Assembly: GCA_021292165.1 (NCBI GenBank)
Contig: CM037877.1
Span: forward strand, 305,044,063 to 305,108,062
Direction of reading: 5' to 3'
Length of the DNA stretch: 64,000 nucleotides
Origin: Shinisaurus crocodilurus
Lineage: Eukaryota > Chordata > Lepidosauria > Squamata > Shinisauridae
Shown here: in pieces, positions 8,545 to 64,000 of the stretch
Numbering within the stretch: position 1 is the stretch's first letter
Layout of the letters: every line of letters starts with the position of its first letter
The notes under the pieces: model-generated
The model's input: the letters and a program-made list of their open reading frames with translations, nothing else
Told to the model about the DNA's origin: nothing
The model's database searches: none
Translations under genes and position numbers: made by a program

Positions 8545-9280
8545 TGTGGAGAAAGCCCAAACCCCAGTTACACACACGCACACACATTTCCCCAAGGGAG
8601 GGGGCAAGGGAGGAGGGATGAGGTCACCAGGGAGTACCCAGACAAGTCATCAGCCCCAACAAAGGAGGACCTCGGCAGAGATCCACAAACGTCCAGGAAG
8701 GACCATCAAGGACCATCAACAAACAGGGCAGTCTCAAAGAGCTGCAAAATATCACTACGTCACCGTCTTCCCGGGCAGGAATAAGCCCACATGAACGAAG
8801 GGGCAGGCACAAGCCCCCACCTGACCCAGAGGGCGGGGGGAGCGGGAAAACCGGGGTAGAAAAACCCCTCTCCCTTCCGGTAGTGGGTTGTTGGGAACCA
8901 CGGGGCCATATCCTCCTAAGCAGAAGCCGTCCAGGTGCACCGTTCTCCGCTAGGAAGCGCCGATCGGGAGCTGGGCTGAAACTGACTAGAAGTAGTATCT
9001 TTGATGTGAGGATATTGACCAGATTCCATCTACTAGCCACGGAGCCCGCTCATTGGGTAAGACGCGGGTCAGCTAAGGTTGTGTTGACTGTAAACGTGTT
9101 CTTAGAAGGCTGATAGTTCCGATCTGATTATTGTATAAACAAATAAAAAGCCTTATTTGGGCATACAAAGGGTTGTGGTTTTTCCTATTGTACTGAGAGC
9201 CGATACGAGCTGTATTGCTCTGCCGGTTAACCCTAGAGTTGCCGAACTCACGCAAAGGATCCGGTTGCTGATCCTTCACA
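8545..9280 (+). mobile_element. solo LTR (family A), copy 1
   Basis: A 736-bp LTR begins TGTGGAGAAAGCC and ends GATCCTTCACA. It is bounded by a perfect 5-bp target duplication ATATT (8540-8544 and 9281-9285). A polyadenylation signal AATAAA lies at 9142-9147, giving plus orientation. No internal region or second LTR is attached, so this is a recombination-derived solo LTR. Two relatives lie at 19121-20139 and 60566-61352. The 5-bp duplication fits Gypsy or endogenous retrovirus elements; no internal gene is present to decide between them. Confidence 0.9.
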
Positions 9281-10267: not shown

Positions 10268-12911
10268 GACAACAGCAATCACCATCATGGCTCTGGAGAT
10301 CAAAGTGGCTTCAGAGTGGTCTCAGAGCATCCTGGGGTGGGTGGCTGTAGCTTTAGCCACGCCCTCATGTTGCCTGGCCACGCCCTCTTGATCACACCTT
10401 TATGTTGCTTAACCATACCTCTTACAAATTCACATGTTGTCCCTATTTTCATCTGTGAAACGTTGGAGGGTATGAAATACCACCTGTTAAATCTCTGCCT
10501 GAAATGCTACTGCTAAAGACAGGGGAATCCTGTCAGGAAGAAAAAAGAGGTAATAACCTTTGGCTGAGCCTTATAGCAAATTTAGCCCTCTTTGGGGGGG
10601 GGAATGGTTGGTCAACCCTTATCCTTCTGGAGCAGGAAGAGTTAAAAAGATCATAGAGGAGCTGGTTTTTGGTCAAGCCTTCTCCCAAGCGAGGGATTGC
10701 GGGGGGGAAGATAAAAAGGGATGGACCTCTTCCTGTTCCAAGCTTTATTTCTCCCCCCCTCCCGTCGTTTCCCCACCTATCGACGTTTCGGAGCTCCGAG
10801 GGGAGGTTGCTCATGCAACAAAGGAAAGTGAAATTCAGCAAAACTAAGGGGGCAGGCTGGGTGAGTCAGATGGGCAAAAATAAGTGCAGGGAAAAGGAGC
10901 AAAAAGAACTATCTACAGGGAAAGTGTGTGTGTGTGTGAAGCTTTATGGAGCATGCCGCCGTTATCAAAGATCAGAGAGCAAATTCATTCCTTAGAGAGC
11001 TATTGTAATGCCAGTGGATTTCTGGATCCTCGCTTTCTTTTTATCCCATTGTTTCTTGCATTTCCCCCCTAGTATTTAATTAAGGGCAGTTCCAACATTA
11101 TACGTTTTCTGCAGGAAACAACATTCCCCACAAGAAACACGGAATGTGTAGAGGTTGTGCATGCATGCACGCACCATCTGTAAACACCCACCTGGGAATC
11201 CTGGCCCAATCAGCTTTTCCAGATAGACAGACGGATAACTGAAGATCATGTGTGTACACCTGTATATGTTGTCCATGTGTCACATGTTTGCCGCAAGAAG
11301 GGCCAGCAAACCAGCATTACACCCTACAATGTGAAGCCATCCCAATGTGTGGAGGCTCCCCCGTTCTGGGTTCCGCATACTCCAGATTACATTTTGTCTT
11401 TCAACACAACACTTTTTCACCGCATTGTCTTAGGTGCAGATAGGGGTGATTGGAGCATGGTAAAAGAGTATTCCCCCAGCTCTGCATGGCATGAATTTGA
11501 AGTAAGAATTCTGAAGCAGGGTTAGCGACTGGGAGATATAGGAACCGAATGATAATGTGGTTGAGTTATCATGTGTTTCTGAGGTGCGAAGATCCTGTGT
11601 ATGTGGTGATCTCGTTTCTACTAACCCTGTCTTCCATTTGCATGAACAGCTCCCACCTGAAGGACCAAGGTTCCCGACGTGATTGCCTTGCTATAAGGCA
11701 AGGAGAACATCTGGATCCGACATGACTGCATGGTTGTGGCCGTGAGGGGCAGGCAAGAACCACGTTGCAACTTGATAGCAACAGAAGCAGTTTTTAATTT
11801 TCTGTTTTTCTGGGCTAGGAATCCTTCACTGTGAGTTATACTGCATTGTTCCCTGCTGGAGGAAAAAACAAACAAACAACCCCCCCTCCCTTTCCAGGTA
11901 CTTTCCTTCCCCACTTGTGGAAATGCTTAGAATCCCATTGCTTAAAGCACATTATAAGCCTCTCTTGAGCCCTATGGAAATCCTCCCAGGTGTAAATGCT
12001 GTATCCACAATGAGTGTATTGTCCCTCAGAAAGCATCAGTATTTTTTATAGCCACTAGACCGTTGCTGTATAATATGTATATCTTTATCTAAAATAGCAG
12101 GTGTTTGTTTTTTTTCCTCCTGGGTCACCTTGGTATAGACATTGAGCTGCTTGGTGTAGAATTTGTACAGTAGCCCTGCTCATTCCAAGGCAAGAATGTG
12201 AGGGTTGATGGCGCGTGAGTGACAGCAGAGCCCCGTGTGCGCGAGATGGGAGATTAAAAATCCTGTTCGTGTGTAGAGACCCATAAATCCACACACAGAA
12301 ATCCAGATCTTTCTCCCCCTCTCTCTGTGCAGCGTGCAGCGTTTCGGATGCAATCAGCCAGCCAGCTTTCCAGCCTGTAATCCGACTCCAGCAGCCAGCT
12401 CCCCCGTTTGCAGATAGCAAGGAAAAAACTCTGTAACTCCACAGGTCTATTCTACCTGTTTATTTACTTAGCAAAGTAATATTCTACAGAGTATACATTT
12501 CCTAGTTACAGTCCATGTGCAGAGTACAATGCATAGCAAGCATTTATTCCAGTGGAGCAAGTTGAGCTTTACCCCACCTCAGCAAAGACGCTACATTGTT
12601 GCATAAGTCCAGCAAGCAATAGTCAGAAGAAAAAAGTGAAGAGAGAGAACAGTCCTGCTCCTCTCTAAAATGGCTGCAGACAGAAAAACAAGTCAGTACG
12701 TCACCAGAACATCTAAACCATGTGACTAGCTCATACTGTTTCCCAGGCCTAGCTGTTCCCATGAGAAATAACATGGCAAAGTAGGACGACACAACATTCT
12801 TGTTTACCGCCATTCTGTTCCTTCCATGTTGTAAACAATGTGCTCCAGCTTGTGAATGTGATACATATCACAACAAGGGTAGCATCTTGATTCCACACAT
12901 TCTTGTTTCAG
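10268..12911. other. intergenic or intronic interval before zinc-finger exon
   Basis: No domain was recognised on either strand. There is a GT run near 10925-10938. It probably contains intron sequence of the downstream zinc-finger gene, since that gene's coding exon starts at a splice acceptor. No upstream exon could be identified. Confidence 0.4.
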
Positions 12912-12925
12912 CAGATATTTGGACC

Positions 12926-15199
12926 ATGAATGAGGGATACAGCCCCTCTTTGGTGAAAGAAGAGGTGTCTAATCAAGACGGTCACACTGATTTCAAACTC
13001 CAGGAGATACCTTGTGGTATCCGGTGCTTGTCTGACAATGAGCATCAGGAATGTGATGAGAAATGTCATCCTAGAATTGGGACTGGACACCATTCCCAGC
13101 AACATAGGAGTTTCAGTAATATATATGGGAGATGCCATGAGGGCGGATGTGGTACTAAGAGGGAACAATGTGACAATGGTTCAGACGATGGTGGGGATAC
13201 AGGATTCCGACTCGGGTTAAAAATGGTAGGTAGACGAGGCATTCATAACAGATGTTTTGATGGTTTGGATTTAGATGGAGAACAGAGATCCCAGCCAGAC
13301 TTGGATGTTGATGAGATCAAGAAAATAATTAAGCTGCACTCCAGCAAAGAATATGAACAAACATGTGGCAGCAACTGGAATGACTCTCCAGATGCCAATG
13401 GGGATTTAGATGGGGAGAATAATCTGCATTTTCATCTAAACGAGGATGGCGACCAAGATTTGTCTTCAGACTTGGATGGTGATATCAGCCAAGACATGGA
13501 TAGAAACCCCAATCATGCTTTTGACCCAGACATGGAAGAAAACCCAAATGTCTCTCCAGAAATGGAGGGAGAAGCAGATGAAAATTCCAGCAAGGAGATT
13601 GATGCAGAAATGGACGAGGTCAATGAAGACTTTGATTCTGATGCAGATGGAGAGGACAACAGTCTCCATTTGGATGGCAGTGATGGCGACCGAGACTTTG
13701 ACATTGGCCCTGATCAACTGGATGTCAACTCTTCCCTCACAGCCACCTCGTCCATTTTCCCTTCTGTGCCTGACAAACCCTACAGATGCCCTGAATGTGG
13801 AAAATGTTTTGGCACTAGCTCTATCCTGGGCCAGCATCGTCGCATCCACAGCGGTGAGAAACCCTACAAGTGTGGCGTCTGTGGCAAATGCTTCACCCGG
13901 GGCTCCACCTTCCTCCAGCACCAGCGTACACACACGGGTGAGAAACCATACAAGTGCCCAGATTGTGGCAGGTGCTTTGGTCGGAGCTCCAACCTTATTC
14001 AGCACCAGCGGGTTCACACAGGCGAGAAGCCCTACAAATGTAGCACCTGTGGAAAGTCTTTCTCTCTCAGCTCTACCCTTATCCAGCATCAGATTATCCA
14101 CACTGGAGAAAAACCATACAAATGCCCCGACTGTGGTAAATGCTTCAACCGCAACTCCAACTTGCTGAATCACCGGCGAGTGCACACAGGGGAGCGTCCC
14201 TTTGCCTGTCGCATCTGTGGCAAGAGATTTTCTGAAAACTCCTCCCTCACCCAGCACCAGCGGACACACACTGGGGAACGTCCTTTCCGGTGCAATGACT
14301 GTGGCAAATCTTTTTCCCTTAGCTCAACTCTGATCCAGCACCATGTCACACACACTGGGGAAAAACCTTATGAGTGCCTGCACTGTGGCAAGTCCTTTGG
14401 GCTCAGTTCCACCCTGTTGCGCCACCAGCGGCTCCACACTGGGGAGAAGCCATTTGAGTGCCAGGACTGTGGCAAAACCTTTGCCATTAGTTCACACTTC
14501 TTGCAACATCGAAGGGTCCACACAGGTGAACGCCCATTTCAGTGCCCAGATTGTGGGCGTACATTTAGCCAGAGGGCACATCTGGTGCTACATGAGAAGG
14601 TTCACCGGAATGGGATGGCCTCACAACCTCGTCACCAAGCCCTCTATATTTGCAGTGACTGCGGCAAGAGCTTCCAGCAGAGCTCACACTTGGCACAACA
14701 TCAGAGGGTCCACACAGGTGATAGGCCATACCGATGTGAGGATTGTGGGCATGGCTTCTCCCAAAGTTCCAAACTGCTGGAGCACCAACGGGTTCACACT
14801 GGCGAGAGGCCATACTCCTGTAAGGTCTGCGGGCGCCGCTTTGGGCACAGCTCAGCACTTTTGCAGCACCAGCGCATTCACACTGGAGAGAGGCCCTACA
14901 AATGCCCAAACTGTGATAAAGCTTTCTGCCAGAGTTCAGCTCTCATGCAACACCAACGTATCCACACCGGAGAATTGCCGTACATCTGCCAAGAATGCGG
15001 CCAGCGCTTCCGATACCTTCTGCAGTACACACGGCACCAAAAGGTGCATGCCAGGGAAGGGTCCTCAACGGCTGCCCGTCTTGCAGGAGAGGCAGCCATC
15101 TTGGCAATGGACAACAAGATGGTGCCTTCAGCAGGGGATGAGACTCCGGGAGAAACTTTAATAGTGAAGGATTTCTCCGTAGTAGAACATGGAGATTGA
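12926..15199 (+). CDS. C2H2 zinc-finger protein, 15 fingers, Asp-rich N-terminus
   Basis: This encodes a putative nuclear DNA-binding protein of 757 residues in one exon. The start is the first ATG ([13 protein letters not shown]) after a splice acceptor (CTTGTTTCAG, AG at 12910-12911); the frame stays open upstream, but that is intron. Residues about 1-100 have no known domain; no KRAB, SCAN or BTB is seen. Residues about 110-280 are strongly acidic, with recurring DLDG, DMDxxP and DADGED units. From about residue 285 come 15 canonical C2H2 fingers (CxxC-x12-H-x3-H), first [19 protein letters not shown] and last [19 protein letters not shown]. Most are joined by TGEKPY/TGERPF linkers; the linker between fingers 10 and 11 is longer. 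The C-terminal tail is about 50 residues. All fingers keep their Cys and His, so it looks functional. The exact orthologue is not recognised. Confidence 0.88.
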
Positions 15200-29484: not shown

Positions 29485-32400
29485 ATGCTGTGGACCCTGC
29501 CGGCTGAGGCTTAGCACCTGACATCGTTGAGTGGGGACCCAGGGAGCCTGGGCGGGGAAGCCATGCAGGAGAACTCGGAAGCCGACGTTTCTCTGGGTAC
29601 GTCTTTGGGTCATTGTGTACTGTTACTCCGACGGCCCAAAACTCTGTCCCAAGAGTTGGTGAACAGGTGGCTGCCACCAAAACTCAGTCCTGAAGGGAGC
29701 GCTTGGAGGAGGGTGGGGGCGAGTCCTTTTACAGGTAAGGCCTGGGCCATGGCGGCGGCGGGGGGGGGGGGGAGGGTGAAAGGGTCGGGCAGACGTCCCC
29801 AACGCGGCGCCCTCCAGCCGGTCGGACTACAACTCCCAATCAGCCCCAGCCAGCATGGGCAATGGCCGGGGATGATGGGAGTTGTGGTCTGACAACATCT
29901 GGAGGGCGCCGTGCTGGGGCGGGCTGGGGTAGCGGATCTGGTGGTAAATGCTTAGGAAAAGAGGACTGGTCCTGGAAAGCAGGACTTGTTGATCCTGTGC
30001 CCAGCTCTGAGAAGGGACTGGTGGAGTGGGCGGGTGTCAGCAAAACAAGGCCTGCTCAGAGTTTGCTGGCATAAGGACTTGCTACATTCAGAGATGGGCA
30101 AAATCACTGATAGAGCTCGGGGTTTTTTTGAACGCTCTGGCCTCAGGGAACCCTTTCCACATGGATTTGTCTGTCAAACCCCCCCCCCCCACAGTGGAGC
30201 TCCTTGTTTGTTGCATAGGACGTATCCTTGGTTCACGTGTTGTACTGGCTGGGCCTGTAAATTGAGAGTGCCCCCCCTCTCCCAGGCCGCAGTCCATTTT
30301 TGCTTGCCGCTGTGCATTATGGGGGAGAAATGGTAGCCATGGGTCTTTCAGGGAAGCTTGTCCCTCAGTCCTGATCTCGACGTTGAGGAACCCCGGGATT
30401 CCCCAGAGCACGGTTTGAAAGCTACGATACGGCTCACGGCTGTGTCAACCCTGATAGGTGAGAGATTTTCAGGGTCTCAGCCTCTTGCTTTTAACTCTGT
30501 GTTCACAGATCACCCGGAGAATGCTCCTGCCGCAGCCTCCCAGATGGAAGGAACAGAGGACGCATGTGATCCTGATGGCCCTGGCGCTTTGGAGGAAGAA
30601 GAGGAGACCCCAAGAGTCACCCCTGCAGGTGGGAAAGATGAAAACAGGAAGATTCATCTTGGAATGAAGGGCTAGGACAGGGGTGGGGAACGGGGGGGCC
30701 GGTTACGGACCACCCTGGAGCCCTGCAGTCAGTGTGGGTCATTCTGGGCTAGATGCACCCATAGTCTTACTGTGTAAAGGCAGCTTTATATTTTCAAGGG
30801 AATCCTTACCCCACATAATGTTTGGGCAGGGATGGGATGCAGGCGATTTTAATTTTTTAAAATTGTTTTTGGTCTTCTCCTGGATGACATTCCAAACATT
30901 TGCACAGTTCAGCCCGGAAAATAAGCTTCTGCCTTATTTTAGGTACTTTGGGATCTTTCTTTTTCGGATACGTTTCTGATTCTGTCTTTCTCCTCCTCTT
31001 GCCAGCTGACGGAGAGAAAGTGGAGCCCGTGAAGGCGGAGAGGGAGGAAGGCGCCTTTTGTACTGGACCACGAAGCCATGTCGAGGAGGACCTACCAACA
31101 GCAGCCGTAGCACCTCCGCCCCGCGGGAAGGGGGAGCGCCCTTACCCCTGCAGCGAGTGCGGGAAGGCGTTCAGCCAGTGGTCAAAGCTGGTGCGCCACC
31201 GGCGCATCCACACGGGGGAGCGCCCCAACACATGCACCGACTGCGGCAAGTCCTTCACCCAGAGCTCCCACCTGGTCCAGCACCGACGGACGCACACGGG
31301 CGAGAAGCCCTACGTCTGCGGCGACTGCGGCAAAGCCTTTTCCTGGAGCTCCAACCTGGCCCAGCACCAGCGCACCCACACGGGCGAGAAGCCCTATGTC
31401 TGCCGGGAGTGCGGCAAGGCCTTCTCCCAGAGCACCAACCTCATCAAGCACCAGCGCAGCCACACGGGCGAGAAACCCTACCGCTGCCCCGAGTGCCCCA
31501 AGAGCTTCTACCGCTCCTCGGACCTCATCCAGCACCAGATCACCCACACCGGCGAGCGGCCCTTCAAGTGCGAGGAGTGCGGCAAGGGCTTCACCCAGAG
31601 CGCCAACCTGGTCAAGCACCGCAAGATCCACGCCGGGGAGAAGCCCTTCCGGTGCAACGACTGCGGCAAGACCTTCATCCAGAGCTCGGAGCTCATCCAG
31701 CACCAGCGCACCCACTCGGGCGAGAAGCCCTACCAGTGCCAAGAGTGTGGCAAGCGCTTCGGCCACGGCGCCACCCTGGTCAAGCACCAGCGGCTCCACA
31801 TGGGGGTGGAGCCCTACCGCTGCGCCGACTGCGGCAAGACATTTGGCCTCAGCTCGGCACTGGAACGCCACCGGCGGTGCCACAGCGAGAGCCGCCCGTA
31901 CGCCTGCGCCGAGTGCGGCCAGAGCTTCTCCTTGGCCTCCAACCTCACTCTGCACTCTCGCATCCACCGGGGCGAGAAGCCCTACCGCTGCGCCGACTGC
32001 GGCAAGTGCTTTGGCATGAGCTCCACCCTCATCCGTCACCAGCGCATCCACACGGGCGAGAAGCCCTACGCCTGCCTCGACTGCGGCAAGGCCTTTGTCC
32101 GCAGCTCGCACCTCACCCAGCACCGCCGGACGCACACGGGCGAGCGGCCCTACCACTGCGAGGAGTGTGGTCGGCGCTTCTCCCAGAGCTCCAACCTCAT
32201 CACCCACCAGCGCATCCACATGGAGGAACGCCCCCACGTCTGCCACGGCTGTGGACGGCGCTTTGCCCAGGAGGAGGAACTGCAGCGCCACCAGCAGGAG
32301 GAGGACGGGAAGTGCAGTGGCAAAGGAGAGGCTCACGAGCCAGAGGGCCACGCCTCCCCCGTGGGCGACGTGGGTGGGGAGAGCCGCGAAGATGGGCACG

Positions 32401-34238
32401 CGTCTCCCCCTTGCCAGGGGAGCATCATGCCACGTGCCACACGTGGACTGGACTGCAAAGATTTGGACGAACTGGAGGAGCATCAGAAGAGCCACGTTGC
32501 CCATCTCTGTATCATTTGCGGGCAGAGCTTCCAAGACAGCGCGATGTTGCTGCGGCACCGAGAGAGCCACACCTGTTACATCTGCACCGCATGTGGGAGG
32601 AGCTTTGGGGATGCCGGTGCCTTGGCCTGCCACCAGGAGAACCACGAATCTTGGATCTGTGGCATTTGCGGGCAGAACTGCAAAGACAGCTTGGCCCTGG
32701 CACAGCACGAGGAAACCCACTCGCGGCATGTCCGTGGCACGTCCGGGGAGGGCTCTGTCGGTAGCAAGGCGCTCGTGCTGCACGAGGAGGGCCGGACCCA
32801 CAAGGAGGATTCGAAACTTACGTCCGTCTCGGAATCCCCCGAGGCCCTTGCACGCATTGATTCCAGGGAGGGCTTTGTAGTCGGGACCGTCCTTATGCCA
32901 CAACAGGAAACACAAGCAGCGTGGGCCTGTCTGGAATGCGGGGAAATCCGCAAGGATAGTTTGGCGCTGGTGGCTCGCCAGCAGAGCCACGGGGCCTTTG
33001 CCGACAGCTCAGCCCCCGGTCTCCAACAGACCACCCACGTGCAGGAGAAACTGTACAAGGGTCCCGAGTGCAAACAGAGCTTTAGGGGCATCTCGGCTCT
33101 CGCTCGGCATCAGAAGGAGTGCATCTGCGGGAAGCTGTGCCGATGTGCAGAGTGTGGGCAGGCCTTTGAAGACGTCACTGCCCTGACGCTCCACCAGAAC
33201 AGCCACGAGGGGGACAAAGCACATGGAAGTCTTGAATCCAAAGAAGCTTTTAGTATTGACTCTGATCTTGCCATACATCCAAGGAATCACAAGGAGGGGC
33301 CGCCTTACACGTGTCTTATAGCACCCCAGAAAATATCCCCCAGAGACAAGGCCTCCGATGAAAACTCAGTCTCTCGCTCCCATCGGAGCATCCCGTTGGA
33401 GGATCACTCACTAAAGGGCTGCTCGGGTCTTACTGTACACCAGGGAATTCACTCAAAAGATAAAACTCTCGGCAGTACACCTCAGAGAATCCCTGCTGAA
33501 GAGGAGGCATCCTCGTGTGGGCTCCTCCAGGACAGCTCAGCTCTCGCCTCACGTCAGCAAGTCCACCTTGAAGAGGAGCCTGAAAGTGCCCTGGGCCCTG
33601 TTGCTCTGCCCCAGAAAAGAACCTCTGTTGCGGACAGGCCTGCTCCAGTTTCCACCGAAATGGCTGCCCTCATCCGGCACCCGAGCCCCAAGCCCTATAA
33701 GTGCCACGACTGTGAGCAAAGCTTTGCGGATGCTGCCAGCTTGTCCCGCCACCAGATCGGCCACATGAAGGAACGGTCGCTGAAGTGTCCCGAGTGTGGG
33801 AGTGGCTTCCCGGAGAGGCTGTCCCTGATCCGACACCAGGTGGAGCACACGGCAGAGAAAGCCAAGAGTGTGCGGCAGCTGCCACCGCCGAAAAACAACC
33901 ACAGCAAGGAGCGGGACCATCGGAGTCCTCTGGAATTTGGGGAGAGTTTCACGGAGATCTCGGCCATCCTCTTGCAGAGGGGGAATCGTGTTTCGGACAG
34001 GGGCACGCCGCAGCGGCCAAAGGACCATGGGGTGGACGGAAAGCGGAGTTCGGGCGATGCGCTGGAGACCACAGAGCCCTACTTTCACCTCGATCTGAGG
34101 AAAAAACCCAGCACCGGCAGCGTGCTGGTTCAGCAGGATAAGGGCAGATACTTTGCGCATTCCGAGCCTGGGAAGATCTCTAGGAACAGCTCTATTTTGC
34201 TGCAGCACCTCCAGAATCACATGGCGGAGAAACCGTGA
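29485..34238 (+). CDS. C2H2 zinc-finger protein with vestigial KRAB exons, about 1,128 aa
   Basis: Predicted coding exons: 29563-29596 ([11 protein letters not shown], inside splice-bounded exon 29485-29596, donor GTACGT), 30509-30628 (acceptor TTCACAG, donor GTGGGA), and 31006-34238 (acceptor CTCTTGCCAG, stop TGA). All junctions are phase 1 and join in frame. The short middle exon encodes an acidic linker. The last exon begins with 13 canonical C2H2 fingers with TGEKPY-type linkers, first [19 protein letters not shown] and thirteenth [20 protein letters not shown] 14th ([19 protein letters not shown]) lacks its last His. The remaining 600 or so residues hold scattered fingers, some intact ([30 protein letters not shown]) and many with lost Cys or His. 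MQEN is the residue string that normally ends a KRAB-A box, but the bases before it are frameshifted. It probably encodes a nuclear DNA-binding protein; the start is inferred and the orthologue is not recognised. Confidence 0.8.
29797..29922. repeat. hAT-like palindromic MITE in zinc-finger gene intron
   Basis: Ends CCCCAACGCGGCGCCCTCCA and TGGAGGGCGCCGTGCTGGGG are inverted. The arms carry GACTACAACTCCCAATCAGC and GGGGATGATGGGAGTTGTGG. It lies 200 bp downstream of the exon donor at 29597. Confidence 0.75.
30352..30457 (+). pseudogene. relic KRAB-B-like exon
   Basis: It has an acceptor (GGTCTTTCAG) and a donor (GTGAGA), spanning 106 bases. One frame reads [18 protein letters not shown], reminiscent of the KRAB-B pattern PDLxSxLEEEEEPW. 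Joined in phase 1 to the previous exon, however, it meets TGA after seven codons. Its length also does not preserve the frame of the next exon. It is inferred to be skipped or non-coding. Confidence 0.45.
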
Positions 34239-44852: not shown

Positions 44853-44952
44853 NNNNNNNNNNNNNNNNNNNNNNNNNNNNNNNNNNNNNNNNNNNNNNNN
44901 NNNNNNNNNNNNNNNNNNNNNNNNNNNNNNNNNNNNNNNNNNNNNNNNNNNN
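44853..44952. other. assembly gap (100 N)
   Basis: Exactly 100 N, a conventional placeholder for a gap of unknown length. The right side opens in the middle of an antisense LINE, so that element's 3' end is lost here. Confidence 1.
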
Positions 44953-46695
44953 GATAGTCCATGTTTCGCAGGCATACAATAAGTTGGTAATACAATGGCT
45001 TCATAAACCAGTGTTTGGTCTTCTTACAAATATCCCGATCCTCGAACACTCTATGTTTCATTCGAGAAAATGCGGCACTTGCGGAGCTCAGACGATGCTG
45101 GATTTCACTGTCGATGTTAGGCTGTAACAGAAAGATAGCTGCCAAGATAGAGAAAATGATCGACATTTTCCAGTATTGTCCCGCCAAGCTGGATAGATGG
45201 CATCACCAAAGGATTGGCTTGCACTTGCTGATGAAGCACTTTGGTTTTTTGATGTTAAGTGAGACCAAGTTTTTCGTATGCTTCTGCAAAGCATTTAGGA
45301 TAGTTTGGAGATCATCCTCTGAATGTGCGGAGACCACATTATCATCAGCATACTGAAGTTCCACAACGGAGGTTGTAATTACCTTACTTTTTGCTTTCAG
45401 CCTGCTGAGATTAAAAAGCTTTCCATCTGTTCGATATATAATTCCCACACCGGTGGGAAGTTTCCCCTTGACAAGATGTAAAACCATGGCGATGAAAATG
45501 GCAAATAATGTTGGGGCGATAACACATCCCTGTTTAACACCTGATCCCACTTTAAATGGAGCACCATGAGAGCCGTTGTTGTCCAAAACCGTTGCCGTCA
45601 TGTTGTCATGGAGAAGTCGCAAGATATTCACAAATTTATTGGGGCATCCAATTTTCATAAGGATAGTCCAGAGAGCTGTACGGTCTACAGTATCAAAGGC
45701 CTTAGCCAAATCGATAAATCCCATATAAGGGGTTGATTTTGCTCCCGGCATTTTTCTTGGAGCTGACGTGCAGTAAAAATCATGTCTACTGTCCCTCTAG
45801 AGGGGCGGAAACCATATTGAGTTTCAGGAGGATCTCTTCTGAAATAGATAGAAGACGGTTTGCGAGAATCCTAGCAAATATTTTACCTGCGGTTGCTAAG
45901 AGAGAAATGCCCTGATAGTTTCCACAGTCTGTTCTATCACCCTTCTTAAAGAGGGTGATAATTATGGCATCCCTGAAGTCTTCTGGGATCTCTTCTCTTA
46001 TCCAGATTTTTTCAATGAGTTTATGAAGATGTTGTACAAGTTCGGGGCCCCCTTCTTTAAAGATTTCAGCAGGAATCCCATCTGGTCCACTAGTTTTGTT
46101 GTTCTTCATTTGATTAATGGCTTTTTTTACTTCATCCAAAGTGGGGAGTATTGCAAGTTCCTCTTTAATTTGTTTTTGTGGGATTTGCGAAAAAATCTCA
46201 TTATCCACCTTAGATTTACGATTTAAAAGGTCATAATAATGCTCTTCCAACGCAGTGCAATAGATTCTTTGTCTTTTAAGAGTTTGGTGCCATTTTTGAT
46301 TGTAAAGGGTTTGTACCATAGGTTTTTGGTCCATAAATGGCCCTTGTGGCCTTAAAAAAGCCCCGTGCATCATGAGATTCTGCAAGTTGTTGAATTTCTT
46401 CAGCTTTCTTTTTCCACCAAGCGTTCTTAAGTTCTCTTGTTCTTCTTTGGACCTCAGCCTTTGCGCTAGCGTAGGTTTTTTTCTTGGCAGCGCAGTTAAT
46501 ATCATTTTGCCATATTTGGAAGGCTTTCCTTTTTGGTCAATTATATATTTAATCTCATTGTCATTTTCATCAAACCAATCCTGATGTTTCTTAGTTTCAT
46601 ATCCAATAGTTGTTCACAAGCTGCAGTAATGGAGGTTTTCAGCTTAGACCAATGGTCCTCAATGTTGTCAGGAGGTTCCGTAGGTAGATGTTCCT
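44953..46695 (-). mobile_element. non-LTR retrotransposon ORF2, frameshifted copy next to gap
   Basis: It is nearly identical base for base to 62905-64000 where the two overlap, and continues further 5'. Minus-strand pieces include the pre-RT region (SGPDGIPAEIFKEGG), RT blocks GNYQGISLLATAGKIFARIL, FIDLAKAFDTVDRTALW and VKQGCVIAPTLFAIF, and catalytic LQYADD. Relative to the other copy there are repeated single-base losses in short homopolymers (for example near 45288, 45727 and 45828), one extra G near 45120, and a lost GA near 45268. These split the ORF. The 3' end falls in the N gap; the 5' side fades out near 46695. It is either a recently inactivated copy or a poorly polished sequence. 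Confidence 0.85.
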
Positions 46696-53289: not shown

Positions 53290-53960
53290 ATCTGTGGGTC
53301 AGATGGATGAAACGGTCTACCTTCCTAATCACCTGCTCCCATCAGTGGTTCATGCTTTGGTCTCCTCTCGCCTAGACTACTGTAATGCGCTCTACGTAGG
53401 GTTACCCTTGAAGACGGTTCGGAAGCTACAGCTGGTACAGAACGTGGCGGCTCGCCTGGTTAAAGGCAGCCGCCGGCGGGATCACATCACGCCAGTGCTC
53501 AAGGAGCTGCACTGGCTACCAGTTGCTTGCCGAGCTGAATTCAAGGTGTTGGTTTTGACCTTTAAAACCCTATACGGCTCTGGTCCAGTCTATCTCAAGG
53601 AGCGTCTCTAGCAACACCAAGTAGGCCGCTCAACAAGATCTGCCACGGATGGCCTTCTCCTTGTCCCTTCCGCCAGAGCAGCTAGACTGGTGGGGACGAG
53701 GAAGAGGGCCTTCTCTGTGGCGGCCCCCGTACTGTGGAACTCTCTCCCGAGTGACCTCCGCCATGCCCCCTCTCTGCTGAGCTTCCGCCACTCATTAAAA
53801 ACCTGGCTGTTCAGGCAGGAATATGGGGTGGGTTAAGATTTTTTTAAAAAATTATACTGTTTTAAATGTATTTTATCTTGTTTTTATCCTATGTACATCG
53901 CCCAGGGTGGCCGGTTGTCGGCCAGATGGGTGATTAATAAATGTAAATAAATAAATAAAT
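53290..53960 (+). mobile_element. LINE ORF2 C-terminus and 3' tail, plus strand
   Basis: The translation HALVSSRLDYCNALYVGLP, then KTVRKLQLVQN, ARLVKGSRRRDHITPVLKEL, HWLPVACRAEFKVLVLTFKT and GSGPVYLKERL, is the classic C-terminal part of a CR1/L2-group ORF2. A stop after KERL (TAG where the other copy has a Gln codon) breaks the frame, which continues to SFRHSLKTWLFRQEYGVG. It ends with GGGTGATTAATAAATG and an AAAT tail. It is 5'-truncated. Confidence 0.85.
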
Positions 53961-54026
53961 AAATAAAATTTCTGGCCCAGGTCACTTTCACGTGTTTTCA
54001 CCCATAATTACATCTCACTCCATTTT

Positions 54027-54325
54027 CGCATTAGAAAACCGCCATATACGGAGTCAGAGCCTGGGTCCATCTAGCCCAGTATTGTCGACACTGACCGGCA
54101 GCAGCGTCTCTCCAGGGTTTCAGGCAGCCTACCTACCTCACAGGGTTGTTCTGAGGATAAAATGGAGAGGAAGAGGGTGATTATGTAAGCCGCCTTGGGT
54201 TCCTTGGAAAAAAGGTGGGGTATAAATATAATAAATAAATATTAAAAAATGCTGCCGGGGATTGAACCTGCGACCTTCTGCATGCAAAGCAGGGCCTTTA
54301 GCACTGAGCTATTTAGTTTTGGAAA
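54027..54325 (-). repeat. tRNA-derived SINE, antisense, interrupted by second SINE
   Basis: From left: CCGCCATATACGGAGTCAGA, GGGTCCATCTAGCCCAGTAT and TCCAGGGTTTCAGGCAG, then the foreign SINE at 54125-54240. It resumes ATGCTGCCGGGGATTGAACC and ends in an antisense tRNA-like head (GATTGAACCTGCGACCTTCT, GCATGCAAAGC, GCACTGAGCTA). Read in reverse, the head resembles tRNA-Ala. Confidence 0.7.
54125..54240 (+). repeat. Sauria-type SINE 3' portion nested in another SINE
   Basis: CCTACCTACCTCACAGGGTT to AAAAGGTGGGGTATAAATAT and an AATAAAT tail match the 3' half of the SINE at 6231. Confidence 0.7.
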
Positions 54326-54404
54326 AAAATCACTCTCCATATGCATATTTTAATATGAATTAATAGGCTTCTCTGCATGAAGTATTTAAACAGCCACTTT
54401 ATTA

Positions 54405-55025
54405 TTTATTTATTTATTTATTATTAATATTATTTATCGCCCATCTGGCCGGCAACCGGCCACCCTGGGCGATGTACACACAATAGAATACATAAATACA
54501 ATAAAATACATTAAAACAATATAAAAATTTTAAAATCTTAACCCACCCCATATTCCCGCCTGAACAACCAGGTTTTTAATGAGCGACGGAAGCTCATCAG
54601 AGAGGGGGCAAGGCGGAGGTCACTCGGGAGAGAGTTCCACAGTACGGGGGGCGCCACAGAAAAGGCCCTCTTCCTCGTCCCCACCAGTCTAGCTGCTCTG
54701 GCTGAAGGGACAAGGAGAAGGCCATCCGTGGCAGATCTTGTTGAGCGGCCCACTTGGTGTTGCTGGAGACGCTCCTTGAGATAAACTGGACCAGAGCCGT
54801 ATAGGGTTTTAAAGGTCAAAACCAACACCTTGAATTCGGCTCGGCAAGCAACTGGTAGCCAGTGCAAATCCTTCAGCACTGGCGTGATGTGATCCCGCCG
54901 GCGGCTGCCTTTAACCAGGCGAGCCGCCGCGTTCTGTACCAGCTGCAGCTTCCGAACCGTCTTCAACCGTCTTCAAGGGTAACCCCACGTAGAGCGCATT
55001 ACAGTAGTCTAGGCGAGAGGAGACT
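54405..55025 (-). mobile_element. LINE ORF2 C-terminus and 3' tail, minus strand
   Basis: The inverted partner of 53290-53960. The minus-strand frame (54538-54966) is open: KTVRKLQLVQNAAARLVKGS, HWLPVACRAEFKVLVLTFKT, GSGPVYLKERLQQHQVGRST and SFRRSLKTWLFRREYGVG. The 3' tail is the ATTTATTTATT run at 54405-54425. Near 54955-54975 CCGTCTTCAA is duplicated. Confidence 0.85.
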
Positions 55026-59562: not shown

Positions 59563-60587
59563 ATGAGGCTCTCGGCGGCGGCCTGGATCTCGCACGGGCG
59601 GGTGCAGCGGCGCTTCGGGCTCAGGCCCCGCTCGCGCCTCGACCTGCTGCGGAACCTCGTCACGGGCCTGGTGCGGCACGAGCGGATCGAGCCCCCCCGC
59701 GCGCGCGTGGACGAGATGCGCTTCTATGCCGAGCACGTGAGCACCGCTTGGGGCGGGGCCTTCTCCGTTCTCAGCCAATGGGAGGCGCGGGAGGGAGGGA
59801 GGCCGAAGGTGAAGCCCAGGGCCCCGACAGCGGTCTCTGCCCCGAGGGGCTTCCAGAGCAGGGAGAGCCTCCTGCAGCCGCTGCAGTGGATCGTGGCAGA
59901 GGATCCCTGCCTGAGGAGGCATCTTTCTTCTCTCTCTCTCTCTCTCTCTCTCCCCCTTCTGCCTGGCAGCTGATTGACTACGCCAAGCGCGGCGACAGCG
60001 ACCCCAAAGCCATGCGCATGGCCGACTTCTGGCTGACTGTGAGGCGGCGGCGGCGGCGGCAGCCTTGGCCCTTCGACGTGCCCTTGCTCCTGGGGCGGGG
60101 GAGGGCTGGCTGGGCCCTGCCGATGCTGAGCGGCCGCCTCTCTGCTTTGGGCTCTTCCTGCAGGAGAAGGACCTTGTTGGGGGTGAGCCGTCAAAACCTC
60201 AAGCCATGTACAAGTACATGATGTAATTGGGACCACAGAGTCTCTGCATCCTAGAGCAGACACTCTGTGGAATGTTACCCAGGACTCACCTGGGGCAGGA
60301 TGTGGGCGTCGCCAGTCGCCTTCTCTTCCTGCCCTGGAAAATAGTCTGAGCCATGAACTTGAATGAGTAGCATGTCGAGAAGATGTAGCTGAGAACCAGT
60401 TCTGAACGTGCTGAACTTTTCCTAAGTTCAGAACACAGCAGCTACCACATGATTCCTGCATGACTGAAAATAATCTTCTTAAGCCTGCCTGTAACCAGTC
60501 TGCAAGATCTGAGTGAGTAAGCTCTGTTTCTTAACCTCCAAAAGACTGTTTATCTTGTTGGTAGTTGTGGAGAAAGCCTGACACGAG

Positions 60588-60624
<37 letters not shown>

Positions 60625-61854
60625 AGTCTCCGCCCAAGGGAAGGGGGCGAGGAGGGGGGATGAGGTCACAGGGGAAGCAGCCAGACAGACCGGCATCCCC
60701 AACAATGGAGAGTCTCGGTGGAATTCCACAAAACCCAAGGAAGGACCATCAAGAACCATCAAACTATCAGGGCAGTCTCAAAGAGCTGTAAAGTACCCAG
60801 TACGTCACCTTCTTCCCGGGCAGGAATAAGCCCACCTGATACGAAGGGGCAGGCATAAGCCCCCACCTGACCTGGAGGGTGGGGGGAGCGGGAACTCGGG
60901 TAGAAAACCCCTCTCCCTTCCGGTGAAGGGTTGTTGGGAACCCAGGGTACTTCGGAACCAGATTCAGCCTCCAAGCGGCAGCTGGAGTAAGCTATTCCCA
61001 TCCCCGGATCGGCCGACCCGGAGCCAGGCTGACATTGACTAGCGTAACGTCTTTGGTCTGAGGTAACTGACTAATCCCAAAGCGCTAGCCTGGGAGCCTG
61101 TTTTCATTGATAAACGCAGAGGTCAACTGAGGTTGTGTTGACATTGTAGTATTCCTAGAAAGCTGTTAGTTCCGCTCCGTATCTTGTGTAAACAAATAAA
61201 AGCCTTATTTGGTCATTTAAAGGGCTCTAGTTTCCTCTTGTGTGTGCGAACCTCCTAGGCAGTCTCCTGTGCTTGTACGGGCTGTAACCCAGTGCCGGTT
61301 AACCCGTTAAGCGCCGAACTCACGCAAAGGATCCAGGTGTTGATCCTTCACAGTAGTATAAAGGGGGGGGAACCAGGTGAAAAGCCCCAGTCCGTCCACA
61401 CAAAGGGACAGACTGTGTCATTACCAAATTGCCGTTACTGCCCTAACCGGCAGCTCCACACATACCCACGTTTTTCCGCTGCAGTTGGGGTTAAGCTCTG
61501 CTGAACTTGCACACGCAAGAGGGGAGAGATAATAACTCTTAATATCCTCTCCCAGCCCTTTTAGCAATCCCCAACAGACCTGATCCACAAGCTCTTCAAA
61601 GTGCTGGCTCCGCGCTTCCAGGCTCACACGGGGCACTACACGCGCATGCGGCAGATTCCCAACCGGGAGAACCTGGACCGAGCCAAGATGGCTGTAATCG
61701 AGTACAAGGGGAACCCGCTTCCCCTTCCCCACCGGGACAGTGAGAAGACCCTGGTGAACCAGCTGCTGAAGGGCCACCGGGAGGACGTGCTCAGTCCCAG
61801 AGGAGCCCAGCAGGGCCCCCCCCGGAGGAGCACCCCGTGGGCACGGCTGTGTAG
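59563..61854 (+). CDS. MRPL17: mitochondrial ribosomal protein L17, third coding exon split by LTR
   Basis: A bL17-family protein of the mitochondrial large ribosomal subunit. Exon 1 59563-59736 (58 codons): [41 protein letters not shown], donor GTGAGC. Exon 2 59970-60038 (23 codons): [20 protein letters not shown], ending WLT. The third exon starts at 60164 with GAG AAG GAC CT (EKDL) but is interrupted at 60174 by an LTR insertion. It resumes at 61579 with the duplicated GACCT and reads [39 protein letters not shown], then [15 protein letters not shown]. Splicing from 60183 (GTGAGC) to AG at 61578-61579 keeps the frame and adds four residues. The C-terminus depends on a run of eight C (61816-61823). 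As written the frame runs to 62098. With nine C it stops at 61852-61854, giving about 174 residues before the insert, like the human protein (about 175). Confidence 0.88.
59930..59953. repeat. (CT)n tract in MRPL17 intron 1
   Basis: The CT run lies just before the exon 2 acceptor and extends its polypyrimidine tract. Confidence 0.9.
60175..61578. mobile_element. LTR-like insertion inside MRPL17 third coding exon (family B)
   Basis: Terminal TGTTGGGG (60175-60182) and CCCCAACA (61571-61578) form an 8-bp TG..CA inverted repeat. They are flanked by the perfect direct repeat GACCT (60170-60174 and 61579-61583), which is native exon sequence. Without the nested LTR (60566-61352 plus one GTAGT) the element is 612 bp, so it looks like a solo LTR. 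A TATA-like GTATAAAGG spans the nested insertion site, suggesting plus orientation. No internal coding region remains. It is not related to family A by eye. Confidence 0.85.
60183..61579 (+). other. predicted LTR-derived intron of MRPL17
   Basis: Donor GGGG|GTGAGC lies eight bases inside the LTR. The acceptor is CCCTTTTAGCAATCCCCAACAG, whose final G is the first base of the right target duplication. Removal yields E-K-D-L-V-G-D-L-I-H-K in frame, through a 19-base exon 60164-60182. This is inferred from splice consensus only. Confidence 0.6.
60566..61352 (+). mobile_element. solo LTR (family A), nested in the MRPL17 LTR insertion
   Basis: Begins TGTGGAGAAAGCC, ends GATCCTTCACA, with the perfect 5-bp duplication GTAGT (60561-60565 and 61353-61357). 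787 bp including an (AC)n tract at 60591-60623. A sense AATAAA lies at 61195-61200, so a polyadenylation signal sits in the MRPL17 intron in gene orientation. It is strongly similar throughout to 8545-9280. Confidence 0.92.
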
Positions 61855-62022
61855 CGACTCCTCACACTCTTCTTCCTCCTCCCTCTGGGGCGGATGGAAG
61901 CAGCCACCTGTGGCAGAGAGTGTTGCTGCCTCTCGGATTCCGCTGGCCGTCCAGATACAGCCTCAGGTGCGCCCTTCAGCTGTTGCACATGGTTGCAAAA
62001 TTGCCTGGGGGGGGGGGTCGTC

Positions 62023-62165
62023 TTTATTTATTTATTTATTGCATTTATACCCCGCTCTTCAGCCAGAAAAGGCTCTCAGAGTGGCTTACAAAGATTAATA
62101 ATAAGACAGTCCCTGCCCTCAGGCTCACAATCTAAAAGACATGACACAAAAGGAAAAGGGATTGG
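62023..62165 (-). repeat. LINE 3' end, antisense
   Basis: TTATTTATTTATTGCATTTA, then CCCCGCTCTTCAGCC and GGCTCTCAGAGTGGCTTACA, is a typical antisense CR1-group LINE tail. It lies in the MRPL17 3' region and overlaps the long version of the MRPL17 frame, an argument that the longer C-terminus is not native. Confidence 0.6.
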
Positions 62166-62269: not shown

Positions 62270-64000
62270 AGTCATCATCATCAGGCGATCACTCGTGACC
62301 GAGTAAGATTGTCTTCCGGGATAAAAGGAGGAAATTCTAAAGAAGATTGTGTAGACTCTAGCGATGGGTCCGTAAGTGACTGTGGAGGCCAATTCTAGAT
62401 CCACACAGCTTCCCACAGTGAGGACACAGGTTACCAGATAGAAGATGGTCCTGTAAAGGATTCATTTGACGTGCTTTTCGCTTAGCACGTTTCTCCCTTT
62501 CACCTTGCACTCGGGCTTCTTCAAAGTCCATGGAACCTTTGTGAAAGGCCAACCTCCATTTAGATCGTTCATGGGCCAGAGCTTCCCAGTTTTCGATGTT
62601 TATATTGCATTTTTTTAGATTAGCCTTATGAACATCTTTAAACCTCTTATATTGACCACCGATATTCCGCTTTCCATCCTTGAGTTGGGAGTAAAGTAAC
62701 TGCTTTGGGAGACGGCAGTCAGGCATTCGAACAACATGACCGGTCCACTGAAGTTGGCGTTGACGGATCATTTTTTCAACGCTAGTAGTCTTTGCTTCTT
62801 CCAGTACACTGACATTTGTTCGCCTATCTTCCCAAGTAATTTGCAGGATTTTCCGGAGGCAACGTTGATGAAACCTTTCAAGGAGGTGGAAGTGACGTTT
62901 ATAGATAGTCCATGTTTCGCAGGCATACAATAAAGTTGGTAATACAATGGCTTCATAAACCAGTGTTTTGGTCTTCTTACAAATATCCCGATCCTCGAAC
63001 ACTCTATGTTTCATTCGAGAAAATGCGGCACTTGCGGAGCTCAGACGATGCTGGATTTTACTGTCGATGTTAGCTGTAACAGAAAGATAGCTGCCAAGAT
63101 AGAGAAAATGATCGACATTTTCCAGTATTGTCCCGCCAAGCTGGATAGATGGCATCACCAAAGGATTGGCTTGCACTTGCTGATGAAGCACTTTGGTTTT
63201 TTTGATGTTAAGTGAGAGACCAAGTTTTTCGTATGCTTCTGCAAAAGCATTTAGGATAGTTTGGAGATCATCCTCTGAATGTGCGGAGACCACATTATCA
63301 TCAGCATACTGAAGTTCCACAACGGAGGTTGTAATTACCTTACTTTTTGCTTTCAGCCTGCTGAGATTAAAAAGCTTTCCATCTGTTCGATATATAATTC
63401 CCACACCGGTGGGAAGTTTCCCCTTGACAAGATGTAAAACCATGGTGATGAAAATGGCAAATAATGTTGGGGCGATAACACATCCCTGTTTAACACCTGA
63501 TCCCACTTTAAATGGAGCACCATGAGAGCCGTTGTTGTCCAAAACCGTTGCCGTCATGTTGTCATGGAGAAGTCGCAAGATATTCACAAATTTATTGGGG
63601 CATCCAATTTTCATAAGGATAGTCCAGAGAGCTGTACGGTCTACAGTATCAAAGGCCTTAGCCAAATCGATAAATCCCATATAAAGGGGTTGATTTTGCT
63701 CCCGGCATTTTTCTTGGAGCTGACGTGCAGTAAAAATCATGTCTACTGTCCCTCTAGAGGGGCGGAAACCATATTGAGTTTCAGGGAGGATCTCTTCTGA
63801 AATAGATAGAAGACGGTTTGCGAGAATCCTAGCAAATATTTTACCTGCGGTTGCTAAGAGAGAAATGCCCCGATAGTTTCCACAGTCTGTTCTATCACCC
63901 TTCTTAAAGAGGGTGATAATTATGGCATCCCTGAAGTCTTCTGGGATCTCTTCTCTTATCCAGATTTTTTCAATGAGTTTATGAAGATGTTGTACAAGTT
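62270..64000 (-). mobile_element. non-LTR retrotransposon ORF2, apparently intact, continues past window
   Basis: The minus-strand ORF is open from the stop at 62358 to the window edge (over 540 codons). Reverse transcriptase blocks in order: NYRGISLLATAGKIFARILA, QYGFRPSRGTVDMIF, motif A FIDLAKAFDTVDRTALW, SGVKQGCVIAPTLFAIF, catalytic LQYADD, and LSLNIKKTKV. After these come YLGSYLS, LLYACETWTIYKRHFHLLER and QLQWTGHVVRMPD. The C-terminus is a C2H2 finger (CPHCGKLCG, HSHLRTH). The short 3' untranslated region ends in ATGATGATGA-type repeats (62273-62283 on the plus strand). Short tandem 3' tails are known from RTE-group LINEs, but the clade is uncertain. The endonuclease part is outside the window. 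Confidence 0.88.

Follow-up and report, generated by a model that had tools for sequence, protein, structure and literature searches.

Transposon-derived intron gain is said to have been described for the maize Ds element by Giroux in 1994. Introns are known to be gained through the insertion of transposons, and the tabulated part of one compilation gives 35 events in Oryza, Drosophila, Oikopleura and Zea (PMC3443670). The locus described here, an LTR insertion in a coding exon of the MRPL17 gene, resembles these events in that a mobile element came to lie in an exon and that its own or nearby splice sites could excise it nearly precisely. It differs from the corresponding row of that table, which holds no vertebrate, in that one LTR enclosing another lies in an animal mitoribosomal gene; its splicing is predicted. 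Introners, as presented in the relevant sections of PMC9860276, are also mobile elements with target duplications and inverted repeats, and in their case, too, the element becomes the intron. However, they are found repeatedly, in many genes of the same genome, whereas one such insertion was seen in the 64-kb stretch of DNA analysed here (the window). According to the same sections, the authors of the Introner study detected no pattern of this kind among vertebrates.

Novel introns of Drosophila have weak splice sites, according to passages of PMC2809761. They share with the MRPL17 insert an origin from exonic insertion, the weakness of the splice sites, and premature stop codons upon retention. 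In contrast, the source of the MRPL17 insert is an LTR, whereas the passages on the Drosophila introns do not contain the string 'transpos'. In vertebrates, intron gain has been called very or extremely rare in passages of two studies (PMC3151243, PMC3257199). A third study from 2025 reports, in the part available, 342 gains in 293 human genes, using a method that was not designed to detect transposable-element gains (PMC12124190); therefore, vertebrate intron gains as such are not unique. The MRPL17 case is similar to the cases in these three studies in that a gained intron would reside in a vertebrate gene, and some of the fish introns hold repeats, for example an ERV1-labelled fragment in medaka MC5R. 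However, in the passages considered of the three studies, none of the gains was deduced from an LTR whose two target duplications are still preserved. Among the literature matches listed, none described a vertebrate intron that stems from an LTR inserted into a coding exon.

Results

The bL17m (MRPL17) gene is located near the right end of the window, and its coding exons are found at 59563-59736, at 59970-60038, and from 60164 onward. The gene, its insert and the related LTR described below are on the forward (+) strand. The coding part of exon 1 (59563-59736) and exon 2 (59970-60038; 69 nt, ending with ...WLT in phase 0) were assigned from the reading frame and the match to solved bL17m chains. 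Exon 3 begins at 60164-60182, which encodes EKDL and includes the first eight bases of the LTR; upon use of the donor at 60183, this segment forms a microexon of 19 nt. The remainder of exon 3 (61578-62098) was recognised by a Pfam match and its open frame; the conserved core extends to about 61800, and the frame stays open to a stop codon at 62098, with an uncertain tail. The joined product matched two solved bL17m chains with E-values of 7e-66 (9e9c_O) and 1.8e-65 (3j7y_O), and the part after the insertion alone matched the Pfam family Ribosomal_L17 (E 1.1e-9). Because both native introns are present, the locus is not a processed copy, and a retrocopy was ruled out. The CpG ratio is 0.95-1.17 in the upstream region and exons 1-2, compared with 0.43 for the window.

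The window contains further open reading frames. Two of these, at 12785-15199 and 30888-34238, have 804 and 1116 residues and, by eye, C2H2 zinc-finger repeats, and a third one of 196 residues at 2284-2874 resembles by eye a PRY-SPRY (B30.2) domain. In addition, the regions 62904-64000 and 44953-46042 are 98.9% alike over 1098 columns, and the second one begins just past a gap of Ns (44853-44952). The pair probably represents a young retroelement, as the open frames are by eye like those of a non-LTR reverse transcriptase.

Exon 3 reads GAG AAG GAC CT, followed by an insert of 1402 bp (60175-61576) and then by GACCTGATCCACAAG. The frame ...WLT/EKDL is interrupted after GACCT (60170-60174), and IHKLF resumes past a second GACCT (61577-61581). 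The insert begins with TGTTGGGG and ends with CCCCAACA, thus having TG..CA ends and a perfect inverted repeat of 8 bp. The coding sequence was previously continuous, as two solved bL17m chains read EKDLI without extra residues. The chance occurrence of such marks was estimated by searching for perfect 5-bp duplications together with 8-bp TG..CA inverted repeats at a spacing of 300-3000 bp. When the window was shuffled 20 times at the mononucleotide level, seven cases arose; the real window has two, one of which is the MRPL17 insert. Taken alone, therefore, the marks are weak. However, they lie exactly where a conserved series of codons is interrupted, and thus the insertion is secure: an LTR insertion into the MRPL17 coding exon is well supported. 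The other pair in the real window (53867-54510) has a perfect TTAAA duplication of 5 bp and an 8-bp TG..CA inverted repeat (TGTATTTT), and may be due to chance.

The insert turned out to consist of two elements. The outer LTR is split into a left arm of 391 bp (60175-60565) and a right arm of 219 bp (61358-61576), 610 bp in sum. Between them lies a nested LTR of 787 bp (60566-61352), which starts with TGTGGAGAAAGC, ends with TTCACA, and is flanked by its own target duplication, GTAGT, at 60561-60565 and 61353-61357. A relative of the nested LTR with the same ends is present at 8545-9280 (736 bp, flanked by the duplication ATATT); the two are 73.4% identical over 771 aligned columns. With defined ends, a target duplication and a second copy, the nested element has the properties of a solo LTR, and so has the outer element with its TG..CA ends, short inverted repeat and target duplication. 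Further copies of either outer arm were not found in the 64-kb window. Because neither LTR retains an internal region, at least four events are inferred, since each element would have been inserted and later have collapsed to a solo LTR; dating by LTR-LTR divergence is impossible because both are solo. In the outer left arm the CpG ratio is 0.28, which may hint at an old age of that LTR. A polyadenylation signal, AATAAA at 61195, is located within the nested LTR in the sense of MRPL17. The insertion point of the nested LTR coincides with a TATA-like box in the outer element (61353-61362), and the repeated GTAGT keeps TATAAA whole at 61357.

A first-pass annotation of this DNA had already described the break in the MRPL17 frame after GACCT at 60170-60174 and the resumption at IHKLF, and had attributed it to an LTR retroelement on account of the 5-bp duplication and the TG..CA ends. 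The sequence shows the same break, and both the perfect GACCT pair and the 8-bp inverted repeat lie exactly there. Its coordinates for the right GACCT (61579-61583) were two bases too high, although the duplication itself is real. It had also taken the insert for one LTR; the LTR nature holds, but the inner ends and the GTAGT duplication rule out a single element.

The extent of decay was assessed by comparing the gene before and after the insertion. Identity to the human chain was 64/83 aligned residues before the insertion and 52/74 after it. Of the sites that are common to two bL17m chains, 62 of 78 were kept before and 48 of 56 after the insertion, and for sites that are also common to the bL17 of B. 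subtilis the numbers were 23 of 26 and 16 of 16, respectively. Hence the separated downstream part decayed no more than the rest, a comparison of low power if the insertion is recent. The conserved MRPL17 core and the native introns are as expected for a functional bL17m gene. In contrast, the C-terminus is not of normal length, as the product has about 260 residues versus 175-176 in the two best full-length chains. Past a C8 run, the MRPL17 frame is open to 62098 into non-conserved sequence (61814-62098), and another frame stops soon after the run. The long tail may reflect a real change of the tail, an assembly error or early decay, and only the variable tail is affected.

The splice sites of the locus were then scored with approximate frequency tables and not with a trained model. 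The candidate donor GTGAGC (GGG/GTGAGC, 60183-60188) scored 7.87, the highest value for a donor in 60100-61900, and thus above both native donors, for which the approximate scores were 6.89 (exon 1, CAC/GTGAGC) and 5.40 (exon 2, ACT/GTGAGG). The candidate acceptor AG (61576-61577) straddles the junction: its CAG arises from the terminal CA of the LTR and the initial G of the duplicated GACCT. It is weak, with a score of 2.72 versus 7.18 and 8.99 for the native acceptors, the latter being that at 60163. The weak sites noted for new Drosophila introns in passages of PMC2809761 fit this weak acceptor. In the outer right arm, three AGs outscore it, at 61484 (9.71), at 61555 (6.90), and at 61563-61564 within TTTTAG (4.66). 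Several further AGs in the inner LTR and the outer left arm also exceed its score, as does one at 61621 within the exon (8.36). When combined with the donor at 60183, the acceptors at 61484, 61555 and 61564 yield frameshifts or stop codons. A branch-like TTAAT has its A at 61542, which is 13, 22 and 35 nt upstream of 61555, 61564 and 61577, respectively. However, the same scan found no yTnAy motif within 60 nt of either native acceptor, and therefore it is insensitive and proves little.

Two of the eight donor/acceptor pairs examined gave an in-frame product, whereas the other six as well as retention of the insert gave frameshifts or early stop codons. The first pair joins 60182 to 61578 and reads EKDL-VGDL-IHKLF. 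The second joins exon 2 at 60038 to 61565, with EK replaced by QSPT, and no stop codon is encountered before 258 residues. Frame-restoring GT..AG sites are thus present for the MRPL17 insert, with a weak acceptor. The four residues added by the first junction (VGDL) align opposite extra residues of the bL17 of B. subtilis, and other bacterial bL17 chains are longer still at this position, which suggests that a change of length is probably tolerated there. When the insert is retained, translation would stop within the last exon, where nonsense-mediated decay may be inefficient, which would set the insert apart from the novel Drosophila introns.

The first-pass annotation had proposed the consensus donor GTGAGC at 60183, eight bases inside the LTR, together with an acceptor ending at the right duplication, and a restored frame with the four additional residues V-G-D-L. 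The position of the donor, its score and the frame rescue by joining 60182 to 61578 all agree with this proposal. The acceptor site is likewise as described, although it is weak, its AG includes the initial G of the duplication, and the exon resumes at 61578 rather than at 61580. The 19-nt microexon and the second in-frame junction, 60038 to 61565, had been overlooked in that scheme. Its further reading, according to which the element was made into an intron and the hit was thereby tolerated, is an inference.

To judge how often a random insertion would provide such junctions, 40,000 mock inserts were sampled from the one 64-kb window, allowing both replacement and overlap. A donor and an acceptor of at least the observed strength near the ends, an intact frame and no stop codons, as for 60182/61578, were found in 39 of the 40,000. 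Relaxing the donor threshold to the weakest native donor raised the number to 213, and 107 passed when that donor threshold was combined with an acceptor score of at least 4.66. By comparison, a path like 60038/61565 was open to 4,979 of the 40,000 mock inserts, and therefore the existence of that junction is weak evidence. Accordingly, restoration of the frame was dropped as strong evidence for the 60038/61565 junction and was kept for 60182/61578 at the observed site strengths only.

Discussion

On balance, we favour, if by little, the reading that MRPL17 is a live gene in which the nested LTR has recently become an intron, mainly via the junction of 60182 to 61578. It is the most economical one, because the core of the gene is intact after several successive events. 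According to this reading, an LTR retroelement would have integrated into exon 3 of the intron-bearing gene, duplicating GACCT, and would then have been reduced to a solo LTR. Another LTR element would have entered this outer LTR and would likewise have collapsed. The spliceosome would remove the inserted DNA as a new intron, and the locus would still make bL17m. A microexon of 19 nt should be hard to recognise. As the start of exon 3 has just this length, native intron 2 is expected to be spliced first, and its removal would probably give a fused exon of 88 nt. The donor at 60183 would then be joined to the junction CAG at 61577, adding V-G-D-L, and the junction of exon 2 to 61565 may contribute. 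The AATAAA inside the candidate intron counts against this reading. While the anatomy, the nesting, the frames and the approximate scores were read from the DNA, the splicing, the order of events and the function of the gene are deduced from them. Removal by pairing of the element ends, which has been described for some DNA transposons, was also considered and seems unlikely with an 8-bp repeat; nothing on it was found among the literature matches listed.

The strongest rival is that the locus is a dead or dying copy, and that the splice sites are there by chance. It could be a harmful allele confined to one haplotype, or it could be redundant because the genome has an intact MRPL17 at another place. 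We regard this as unlikely, though it deserves to be taken seriously. The stops and frameshifts of six of the eight pairs and of the retained insert, the weakness of the acceptor at 61577, and a possible frameshift of the tail at the C8 run are all in keeping with it. However, the core beyond the insertion is intact even after the presumed two insertions and two collapses, all 16 deeply conserved residues are kept, the upstream region is CpG-rich, and a second significant MRPL17 match was absent from the rest of the 64-kb window.

A live gene could also produce a main in-frame message that skips the microexon, from the donor at 60039 to the TTTTAG acceptor at 61564. In that case the LTR would have replaced the old acceptor of exon 3 and lengthened intron 2, and no intron would have been added. 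This path is in frame, requires no microexon, and has an acceptor that is stronger than that at 61577 (4.66 versus 2.72) and 22 nt past the branch-like A. However, it must bypass the strong native acceptor at 60163, relies on the weakest donor, loses E-K, and is of a kind that is common among the mock inserts, and we consider it rather improbable. It is highly improbable that an assembly artefact joined a repeat into MRPL17, as integration produces just such precise target duplications and full ends as are seen for both the outer and the nested LTR, and the sole run of Ns is 15 kb away, even though that gap is followed directly by a stretch nearly identical to the region downstream of MRPL17.

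Returning to the LTR as a new intron, its ends are of interest for the origin of splice sites. Whichever way an LTR element is oriented, its terminal bases are CA, and therefore a target duplication that starts with G makes a CAG at once; likewise, a duplication that ends in G forms a GT at the other end of the LTR. The proposal that integration itself created the 3' splice site of a retroelement intron, and that a mitoribosomal gene is kept alive with this intron, is tentative and at present doubtful. The mechanism of intron gain in vertebrates can seldom be read, and intact target duplications would show the starting material. If the proposal is true, the MRPL17 case would show the cost of a new intron, four residues, as well as its splice sites, and this in a gene whose structure is known. 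In that case, LTR elements would be pre-armed to some degree as introns, a simple and testable rule would predict which exonic LTR insertions survive, and one could screen the exons of vertebrates for insertions of this kind.
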